From Flintibacter sp. KGMB00164 (GTDB lineage: Bacteria; Bacillota; Clostridia; Oscillospirales; Oscillospiraceae): a DNA stretch of 64,000 nucleotides. The notes beneath the pieces were generated by a model, which saw only the letters and a program-made list of their open reading frames with translations, ran no database searches and was not told where the DNA came from. Shown here piece after piece: positions 1-35,905 of this stretch. The stretch is taken from contig NZ_CP044227.1 of assembly GCF_008727735.1 (NCBI RefSeq), forward strand, positions 1-64,000. Direction: 5' to 3'. How positions within the stretch are numbered: the first letter of the stretch is position 1; each line of letters begins with the position of its first letter. Both the position numbers and the translations under genes were made by a program.

Positions 1-1275
1 ATGCAGCCGGAGATGACCGCCACCACCATCAACACCTGGTTTGACGACGCCACCGCCGTGGCGCTGGAGGACGACCGTTTTGTCCTCTACTCCCCCACCC
101 GGTTTAAGCGGGACATCATCGCCACCCGGTACGTCTCCAAAATCCAAAACGCCCTGCGGGAGCTGTTCTCCGCCGAGATGGACGTGGTGGTCCTCACAGA
201 GGGGGAACTGGACCAATACCAGCAGCCCGCTCAAAAAAATGATTTCTTCCCCGGGACAGAGGAGTACACCTTCGAACGCTTCGTGGTGGGCTCCTCCAAC
301 AAGTTTGCCCACGCCGCCGCCCGCGCGGTGGCCGACAACCCCGGTCAGAGCTACAACCCCCTGTTTATCTATGGCGAATCCGGTCTGGGCAAAACCCACC
401 TGCTTTACGCCATCGCTCATACCATTCATAAGAACCACCCGGAGTACAAGGTGGTCTACATCAAGGGAGACACCTTCACCAATGAGTTGATCCAGGCCAT
501 CCGTGAGGGCCGCAACGCGGAGTTCCGGGAGAAGTACCGCGGCGCCGACGTGTTCCTCATGGACGACGTGCAGTTTATCGCCGGCCGTGACTCCACCCAG
601 GAGGAGATGTTCCATACCTTCAACACCCTCTATGAGCTGAAAAAGCAGATCGTCTTCACCTCCGACCGGCCTCCCAAGGAGATGCTGCGCCTGGAGGACC
701 GACTGAAGACCCGCTTCGAGTGGGGCCTGTTGGCTGACATTCAGCCCCCCGACTACGAGACCCGCATGGCCATCATCAAAAACAAGGCCGTGCGCATGGG
801 GGTGGAGCTTCCCGAGTTCCTGCTCCAGCTCATTGCCGAGAACATCACCGCCAACGTGCGGCAGATCGAGGGCACCGTCAACAAGATCATGGCCTATCAG
901 CAGCTCATGGGCGACTCGGTGGACAAGGACACCGTGGTCCGGGCGGTCAAGGACATGTTTAAGGAGAAGTCGGACATCGTGCCCACCGCCGACGTCATCA
1001 TTGACGAGGTTTGTAAGTTCTACAACATCGAGCCTGCCACCCTCCGTGGCCAGGGCCGTGCCAAGGATATCTCTCTGGCCCGCCAGATCGCCATGTATCA
1101 GATCCGCCGCATGACCAACCTCTCTTTGAAGGAGATCGGCAAGGAGTTTGACAACCGGGACCACACCACGGTGCTTCACTCCATTGAGCGCATTGAGGAT
1201 CTGGTCAAGACTGATCCGGAGAAGGCGGAGATCATTAAGGATATTACTTCGAATATCAATATCCGCTACGAATAA
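1..1275 (+). CDS. dnaA: Chromosomal replication initiator DnaA (5' end cut off)
   Basis: AAA+ initiator that binds DnaA boxes in oriC and opens the duplex. The Walker A motif GESGLGKT is at residues 125-132 of the visible part and Walker B (VFLMDD) near 184. The C-terminal DNA-binding domain carries the signature DHTTVLHSIERI near residues 387-398. The window starts with an in-frame ATG, but the first residues (MQPEMTATTINTWF) match the interior of domain I, so I infer that about 15-20 N-terminal residues lie outside the window. The stop TAA at 1273-1275 is followed directly by a family B palindrome. dnaN lies downstream on the same strand, with oriC between. Confidence 0.97.
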   Translation: MQPEMTATTINTWFDDATAVALEDDRFVLYSPTRFKRDIIATRYVSKIQNALRELFSAEMDVVVLTEGELDQYQQPAQKNDFFPGTEEYTFERFVVGSSNKFAHAAARAVADNPGQSYNPLFIYGESGLGKTHLLYAIAHTIHKNHPEYKVVYIKGDTFTNELIQAIREGRNAEFREKYRGADVFLMDDVQFIAGRDSTQEEMFHTFNTLYELKKQIVFTSDRPPKEMLRLEDRLKTRFEWGLLADIQPPDYETRMAIIKNKAVRMGVELPEFLLQLIAENITANVRQIEGTVNKIMAYQQLMGDSVDKDTVVRAVKDMFKEKSDIVPTADVIIDEVCKFYNIEPATLRGQGRAKDISLARQIAMYQIRRMTNLSLKEIGKEFDNRDHTTVLHSIERIEDLVKTDPEKAEIIKDITSNINIRYE

Positions 1276-31157: not shown

Positions 31158-31390
31158 CTGCAAATTCCTCCTGTATGCCGTCAGCCGCTCCCCTGCGAAG
31201 CAGCACAATACGCTTTGACGAAACATTATACCGCCAGATGGCGGAAAAAGCAACGGTCCGTGAAAAAATCTCACACAAATTTGACTCAAAACCACCCCTC
31301 TCTTCCAGAAAAAAAGACGGCAGGGCGGTGGAAAGAGATGTGGAAAAGTGTGTGGAAAGTGTGTAAAACCGAAAAGATGTTCGACAGCTC

Positions 31391-31439
31391 TTGACAAACT
31401 CGAACATATGTTGTATCTTACGAATAGAACATCTGTTCT
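31391..31439 (+). promoter_or_regulatory. Promoter with two LexA-type (SOS) boxes
   Basis: -35 TTGACA (31391-31396), 17-base spacer, -10 TATCTT (31414-31419). The spacer holds CGAACATATGTTG (31401-31413), one base off the Gram-positive LexA core GAAC-N4-GTTC. A second box AGAACATCTGTTCT (31426-31439) has the exact GAAC-N4-GTTC core just downstream of the -10. A repressor there would block polymerase. The rest of the 31158-31390 gap toward typA shows no clear feature. LexA binding is inferred. Confidence 0.82.
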
Positions 31440-31484
31440 TGACTCCCATGGAGCAGGAACTGGAGGATACAGGGAGGGAACGCC

Positions 31485-31733
31485 ATGCAGACCGTATATC
31501 AGACCATCTCCATCCGACCCCGGTGGGAGGCTCCCCGGGCGGAGGAAAAGATCATTGATCTGGCCCAGTACCGCCGGAAGCTGGAGCGGCAGGAAGAGCT
31601 GGAAGAGGCGGACGTGCAGCCCCGGGTCCGGTCCAGCCAGCGGCGCAACCGCTGGGGGCTCTACTGGGATGCGGTGGCCAGCTTGGGTGTGGTGGCCATG
31701 GCGGTGACCTTCTGCGTGGAGCTGCTGTTGTAA
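31485..31733 (+). CDS. Small C-terminally anchored membrane protein under SOS-type control
   Basis: 82 residues. The hydrophilic, charged N-terminal part includes AEEKIIDLAQYRRKLERQEE and an Arg-rich stretch (VRSSQRRNRW). One C-terminal membrane segment, near residues 62-82, reads AVASLGVVAMAVTFCVELLL. The ATG at 31485 has GGGAGGG six bases upstream. LexA-type boxes lie in its promoter. Small SOS membrane proteins in other bacteria (YneA, SidA, DivS) stop cell division; this one shares no visible sequence with them, so the role is a guess. It is monocistronic. Confidence 0.78.
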   Translation: MQTVYQTISIRPRWEAPRAEEKIIDLAQYRRKLERQEELEEADVQPRVRSSQRRNRWGLYWDAVASLGVVAMAVTFCVELLL

Positions 31734-31753: not shown

Positions 31754-32341
31754 GGTTCCGCCCTGCGGGGCGGGTTCCTTTTTGCTTGCCCAAAAAGGAA
31801 CCAAAAATGCCCTGGGGGTTGATTCCGGTGAGCGCCTACGCACAGCGGGCGCTCACAGTCATCTGCCCCCCAGACCCCCAAATACGGGGGACGCTCTCCT
31901 GAGAACTTGGCACTTGCGTCCGGCGGCTCCGAACACATGATCTTGCGTCCTGCTTGCCTCGGGGATATTGTCCCCTACCCGGTCAGAAATTTTAAAGTGT
32001 CTGCGCTGTACGGACACCGCCTACGCTGGCAAAACTGTGGCAGCTGGTCCGTCGACCACTGCCGCACCGAACAGGTAGGCAGGCAGCAGGCGGCGTGCGA
32101 TAGAATGAAACAACCCACAAATTTTGATGGAAAAAGGCCCCAGTGGGCCGAGAGGAGAAGAAAGCAAGGTCAAAGCTTAGGCCGCCGGAAATTACGAACA
32201 AACCAAAGTGGCCCGCTTTCGTAAAAATGGGGTCCAGGGGTGGCGACTTGGAACGCCCGCTCCGCGTGGCGTTCCTCGGAGCCACACTCCCTGGTGCCTT
32301 TTTGGTTCCTTTTTGGGCAAGCAAAAAGGAACACCCGTCCC
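31754..32341 (-). repeat. Family A structured repeat, copy A6 (reverse)
   Basis: Left end GGTTCCGCCCTGCGGGGCGG intact; right end degraded. Both outer hairpins use the longer variant GGTTCCTTTTTG / CAAAAAGGAACC (left) and the matching right form. Inner hairpins are GTGAGCGCC / GGCGCTCAC and GGAACGCC / GGCGTTCC. It lies between the convergent SOS-type gene and murE. Confidence 0.85.
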
Positions 32342-35232: not shown

Positions 35233-35905
35233 AGGGGCGACCTGCGGTCGCCTAAGGAGACGGATGTTACTTTCTGCACGCGCAGAAAGTAACCAAAGAC
35301 GCGCCAAGGGGGCTCCTTCGACGAACACCTGGCTTACGCCGGTGTTCATAGGCGTCGCCCCCCTGGACCCCCATTACGGAGGGACGCCCTCCTGTCAGAT
35401 AGTAGAATCCTCCCGGCGGCCCGAACACAAGATCTTGCATCCTCCTTGCCCCGGGGGCACTGGCCCCTACCGGGTCAGAAATTTCAAAGTGTCTACGTTG
35501 TACGGACACCGCCTACTCTGGCAGAGCCAGGGCGGCTGGGCAGTGGCTGGGAAACCAGCCGACCACCGCCGCACCAAACAGGTAGGCAAGCACCAGGCGG
35601 TGTACAGTAGAGCCGCCCGCCTGTAAATTTTAGATTGGTAGGGCCTAAGGCCCGAGAGTAGAACGGGAACAGAACTTGATTTTGCCCGCCGGAACTGACT
35701 GCCGAACCAAAGTGACCCGCTCCCGTAAAAGGGGTCCGGGGCCGACTCCCCCTGTCAGGGGGAGATGGCCCGAAGGGCCAGAGGGGGTAGGGATAAGCTG
35801 ACTGTGAACACCACCGCAGGTAGGTGCTCACCGGAAGCGCTCCCCGGTCACTCTTTGGTTCCTTTCTGGTGATCCAGAAAGGAACCCGCCCCGCAGGGCG
35901 GAACC
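35233..35905 (-). repeat. Family A structured repeat, copy A7 (reverse, with 56-bp insert)
   Basis: The left end is altered to GGCGACC-tgc-GGTCGCC (35236-35252), a compensated version of the usual GC-rich hairpin. The right end CCGCCCCGCAGGGCGGAACC is intact. Outer hairpins are GTTACTTTCTGC / GCAGAAAGTAAC and GGTTCCTTTCTG / CAGAAAGGAACC. The 56-bp block at 35738-35793 is the inverted counterpart of the one in A5. It splits the ligase and racemase genes of the cell-wall cluster. Confidence 0.85.

Follow-up and report, generated by a model that had tools for sequence, protein, structure and literature searches.

A tandem LexA-box promoter and its family of small, predicted tail-anchored proteins in Oscillospiraceae

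The locus and its promoter

The window analysed here is the whole stretch of 64,000 nucleotides from Flintibacter sp. KGMB00164. It carries a gene for a protein of 82 amino acids (82-aa protein), which is preceded by a sigma-A-type promoter with two, possibly three, LexA-type boxes and followed by an intrinsic terminator (Table 1). The terminator-like hairpin 3' of the gene points to a one-gene transcript, and the preliminary description of this DNA was thus right in naming the gene as the only one downstream of the promoter; the C-terminal membrane segment that it had assigned to the product was also found again.

Table 1. Features of the locus, given as positions in the window or, for parts of the protein, as residue numbers
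Feature	Position	Strand	Remarks
Possible third LexA box, GAAAAGATGTTC	31371..31382	+	One mismatch; upstream of the -35 element
-35 element, TTGACA	31391..31396	+	CTTG[AC] here in almost every one of 49 aligned promoters of homologues
LexA box 1, GAACATATGTTG	31402..31413	+	One mismatch; fills the promoter spacer and abuts the -10 element
-10 element, TATCTT	31414..31419	+	TA and final T invariant in 49 promoters
LexA box 2, GAACATCTGTTC	31427..31438	+	Exact core GAAC-N4-GTTC; at the expected transcription start
Ribosome-binding site, GGGAGGG	31474..31480	+	From sequence
82-aa tail-anchored protein (predicted)	31485..31733	+	MQT-Y start
IIDLAQYRRKLE helix	residues about 23-44		
Arg-rich stretch	residues 47-57		
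C-terminal transmembrane helix (predicted)	residues about 58-82		
Intrinsic terminator	31755..31783	+	GC hairpin, then T run; ~20 bp past the gene

The promoter, TTGACA-17-TATCTT (31391-31419), showed 10 of 12 matches to the sigma-A type, where the expectation for the shuffled region was 0.5 promoter-like sites. It had been described earlier together with one near-match and one exact LexA core, and all of these were recovered with the 17-nt spacer as stated; the possible third box had been overlooked. Counterparts of this third box, of the GAAAAAATGTTC type, were seen 31-33 bp 5' of box 1 in three genomes of the same genus (G189, G039 and G396), and an upstream box copy is present in the G030 promoter as well.

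Single boxes were not enriched in the window (28 sites with at most one mismatch versus 21.9 expected), and the whole genome had no excess of exact LexA cores, with 17 found versus 23 for the reversed-pattern control. Such counts would agree with the boxes being chance palindromes and the gene not being SOS-regulated. It is the cluster that is unusual: only 4 of 300 Markov-simulated 64-kb sequences had two boxes, at least one with an exact core, no more than 25 bp apart, and none of the 300 had a triple within 60 bp. As the enrichment of single boxes was not significant, the case rests on the tandem arrangement and its conservation.

The genome (2.92 Mb, one contig), in which the 82-aa gene lies at 31485, has one clear lexA at position 2655529. 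The box upstream of lexA is GAACATCCGTTT and that of uvrB is GAACATTAGTTC; the two boxes of the window share the form GAACAT..GTT with both of them and therefore look like sites of the organism's own LexA. Among relatives, many lexA genes (L174-L202) have a single near-invariant operator, [AG]GAAC[AG]AATGTTTG, the consensus of which is weaker than that of the tandem operator of the 82-aa gene. Another LexA-type box, GAACATTCGTTT, was seen at G000:C1:1821398 (L036) ~26 bp before a gene for a serine-recombinase-like protein of 493 aa, which suggests an SOS-controlled mobile element.

The open reading frame is real, as judged by its GGGAGGG site, its homologues in about 25 genera and a dN/dS of about 0.37 in comparison with the closest relative, L011 (74% identity). 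An AlphaFold model (two sequences; pLDDT 65, pTM 0.28) placed helices at residues 26-44 and 56-81, only the second of them being fairly confident. Downstream, a similar intergenic sequence (GCAAAAAGGAACC..., with inverted copies) seems to recur at 31780-31990, 32290-32340 and 35260-35510 of the window and looks like an intergenic repeat family.

The protein family and its promoter across genomes

Homologues were searched for in 400 genomes from the bacterial family to which this organism belongs. The protein alone as query returned 18 hits, about 15 of which were true small homologues (L018, L024, L026 and L027 were rejected as false ones), and a profile of 15 sequences extended the family to at least about 68 members, spread over about 25 genera, a prevalence that is a lower bound with about 11 candidates scored per genome. 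Order- and class-level searches beyond the bacterial family gave no convincing member; weak hits obtained there lay mostly inside long ORFs and were taken as chance. Searches of Pfam, NCBIfam and PDB returned no family match; what hits there were (best E 0.003) were weak, scattered and compositional, and they differed from member to member.

Members are mostly 82-125 aa long and are built alike, with an M[EQ]TxY start, a central [GN][KN][VI][VIL]D[LF]xx[YCW]RxxL motif, an acidic, Arg-rich linker and a hydrophobic helix at the end. A single transmembrane segment was predicted at the extreme C-terminus in 66 of 66 complete members, and beyond the transmembrane window these proteins continue for a median of 2 residues. 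In the same 66 proteins the lysines and arginines flanking this segment averaged 4.7 before and 0.2 after it, and by the positive-inside rule this excess predicts a cytosolic N-terminus. The best-conserved part besides the transmembrane helix, DLxxYRRxLE, is accordingly predicted to be cytosolic.

The promoter follows the protein closely. Two or more boxes (at most one mismatch) were found within 250 bp upstream in 56 of the 69 homologues identified by protein alone, one box in 10 and none in 3, and an exact core was present in 50 of the 69; of 1176 control windows, each 250 bp long and taken from these loci, two had two boxes. Spacing between the boxes, determined in 49 homologues, was 24 bp in 32 cases and 25 bp in 17. 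The 49 aligned promoters have the layout CTTG[AC] ... tcGAACRNNTGTTGTAT..T ... GAACNNNNGTTC, in which the spacer is taken up by box 1, which extends into the -10 element, and box 2 covers the start. The GAAC of box 1 is invariant in them, and in 45 of 49 its last position has a conserved G in place of C, probably owing to the joint demands of LexA and RNA polymerase.

The same association was obtained from the opposite direction. When the tandem-box pattern was searched for in the 400 genomes with no use of protein sequence, it was found in 43 of them, once in each, and the reversed-pattern control gave 0 matches. All 43 sites lead into a member of the family, so that the promoter alone identifies the gene. 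The genes at five of these sites (G087, G158, G213, G150 and G287, from genera g87 and g74) were absent from the protein-search list, and in G026, listed weakly by that search, the frame appears to shift and the promoter pattern is present.

Tandem boxes at a fixed spacing, conserved in 49 homologues and unique to the gene of this family, leave chance palindromes scarcely credible as an explanation. As tested in silico for LexA-regulon membership, a GAAC-N4-GTTC-type operator overlaps the promoter and is conserved among orthologues. Judged by this comparison, LexA control of the promoter is very likely, and the earlier proposal that an SOS promoter under LexA control drives a small tail-anchored membrane protein gains strong support from comparative evidence in both directions. 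A diverged copy (L138, MKSMTTHRDNIINFSDY...) was observed beside typA in G128, a genome of the same genus with lower GC; no LexA box could be recognised in the 300 bp 5' of its frame, possibly through loss of SOS control.

Family members were present in 20 of 60 lexA-positive and 0 of 41 lexA-undetected genomes in a sample of 101 genomes, nearly one per genus (Fisher P 7e-6, a rough value since some of these genomes are incomplete and shared ancestry is uncorrected). Genera with lexA and no detectable family copy exist as well.

Within the genus the 82-aa gene is divergent from typA, and in other genera the family gene has different neighbours, which indicates that gene and promoter behave as an independent unit. 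A changing neighbourhood, together with the frequent SOS control of phage genes, might also be expected if the gene were left over from a prophage or mobile element and its promoter had retained LexA boxes. We consider this origin very improbable, given one copy per genome across about 25 genera, the lack of a match of the window protein to any phage or plasmid record searched and the housekeeping neighbours (typA and a MurE-like gene); in the window, neither an integrase nor a phage gene was noticed next to it. At a number of loci from several genera (L054, L062, L063, L068, L078, L087, L089, L090 and others), a divergent gene upstream encodes a secreted protein of one common family, with a signal peptide followed by repeats; this neighbour may mark the ancestral location of the SOS gene.

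Known SOS membrane proteins and the possible function of the family

Those SOS division inhibitors that do not belong to the SulA group are small, span the membrane once and resemble one another little (PMC6851548, PMC13396833). They commonly target FtsW (PMC13396833, PMC6851548, PMC4211646) and, in Gram-positive bacteria, their genes commonly adjoin lexA (PMC6851548, PMC13396833). The 82-aa protein has the general feature of this functional class, being a small, predicted single-pass protein encoded behind a LexA operator. Its gene is not beside lexA, and over a distance of about 1.5 kb around lexA in L001 no candidate was seen. No LysM- or YneA-like ORF was found beside lexA in 30 loci (up to 1.5 kb on each side, several of them ended by contig ends). 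Six LysM matches occur in the organism's own genome; the three of these proteins that were inspected included none that was small and single-pass and none with an SOS box.

YneA of Bacillus subtilis and ChiZ of Mycobacterium tuberculosis, which act on late division steps (PMC6851548, PMC13396833), are likewise small, single-pass and LexA-controlled. They have an extracellular LysM domain and a gene beside lexA, and in YneA the membrane helix acts on FtsW and the LysM domain does the blocking (PMC6851548, PMC13396833). In contrast, the 82-aa protein is without LysM (no Pfam or NCBIfam match), its helix is C-terminal and its conserved part is predicted to be cytosolic. SosA of Staphylococcus (77 aa) resembles it in having one transmembrane segment, no LysM and SOS control, whereas the membrane segment of SosA is N-terminal, its functional C-terminus is extracellular and its gene adjoins lexA (PMC6851548), so that the order of parts is reversed in the 82-aa protein, and the two have no motif in common. 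An N-terminal segment with an extracellular C-terminus, as in YneA, ChiZ and SosA, is not seen here, the predicted topology leaving a median of 2 residues beyond the helix. Together with the missing LysM domain and the position of the gene away from lexA, this places the 82-aa protein outside those families; it may nevertheless work as they do. SidA and DidA of Caulobacter are also short DNA-damage-induced membrane proteins, of which SidA (29 aa) is LexA-controlled, has essentially no cytosolic domain and acts on FtsW, and DidA, with 71 aa, does not depend on SOS and uses its periplasmic part to bind FtsN (PMC4211646). By its sequence, the 82-aa family is a new one within a known kind of SOS membrane protein, with a predicted architecture that is inverted in comparison with the Gram-positive inhibitors known so far.

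TisB-type SOS toxins are small SOS-induced membrane proteins too, and a TisB- or Hok-like product would depolarise the membrane and lead the cell into dormancy. The tightly closed double LexA operator is such as one would expect of a gene with a costly leak. However, the 82-aa protein is larger than TisB-type toxins and has a conserved cytosolic helix, and one would not expect a pore-forming peptide to have 50-90 residues of conserved cytosolic domain. Furthermore, an Rfam search found no known antitoxin RNA family nearby, which an undescribed RNA would escape, and no antisense promoter-like site lies over the gene. A toxin therefore seems improbable to us.

The predicted topology also bears on what the protein might do instead at the membrane. 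It could be an SOS-induced anchor, the cytosolic helix of which brings in a soluble partner or controls its activity, with no block of division; such a partner might be a factor for repair or segregation, a protease or an envelope enzyme. The most conserved non-transmembrane part, DLxxYRRxLE, is predicted to be on the cytosolic side, and the near absence of an outer part would fit recruitment better than a block of septal synthesis from the periplasm. Nonetheless, no partner gene travels with this single-gene unit, the neighbours of which vary between genera, and no known SOS family of such a kind was found; we hold this possibility to be unlikely, albeit deserving attention.

By analogy with the inhibitors described above, we lean towards SOS-induced division inhibition as the function of the 82-aa family, which the preliminary description had also put forward as a possibility. 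Against it stand the lack of sequence similarity to known inhibitors, the position of the gene away from lexA and the genera that have lexA and no detectable copy. Moreover, YneA inhibits through an extracellular part, and what is critical in SosA is likewise extracellular, whereas the 82-aa protein has almost nothing outside. From the data at hand we infer LexA binding, induction, topology, division inhibition and its target as follows. In the undamaged cell, LexA dimers on the two boxes 25 bp apart would keep the promoter tightly shut; upon damage, RecA filaments would cause LexA self-cleavage and the 82-aa protein would be made. Its C-terminal helix would insert in the membrane, the [VI][VIL]D[LF]xxYRRxLE helix and the Arg-rich stretch would stay cytosolic, and cell division would be blocked during DNA repair. 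With no extracellular part, division inhibition, if real, must use the membrane and cytosolic helices: the former may dock on a divisome membrane protein, FtsW being the prime candidate in view of what is known of YneA and SidA, while the latter may hinder divisome activation or recruit a partner.

By its size, anchor and regulation, and with the apparent lack of a lexA-linked YneA, no other candidate for the division checkpoint of Oscillospiraceae ranks above this family. It is a tentative proposal, plausible though somewhat short of likely, that it represents a sequence-unrelated and inverted class of SOS checkpoint, in which a tail-anchored inhibitor with the DLxxYRRxLE helix on the cytosolic side acts as the main division checkpoint of Oscillospiraceae.

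Implications for Oscillospiraceae

Oscillospiraceae are abundant in animal guts. Nothing was found in the open-licence literature on Oscillospiraceae in connection with LexA or SOS, and the way in which they halt division when their DNA is damaged seems not to have been described so far. The study of the gut SOS meta-regulon (PMC3998124) was COG-based, so that a gene without a COG would be missed there.

The 82-aa family provides a specific and uniformly regulated checkpoint candidate in about 25 genera, and its tandem-box promoter, with LexA control as predicted, is a ready-made DNA-damage reporter. If the protein is a division inhibitor, it would be another independent invention of an SOS checkpoint, working from the opposite side of the membrane from YneA and SosA, and it would offer a tool for division studies in Oscillospiraceae.
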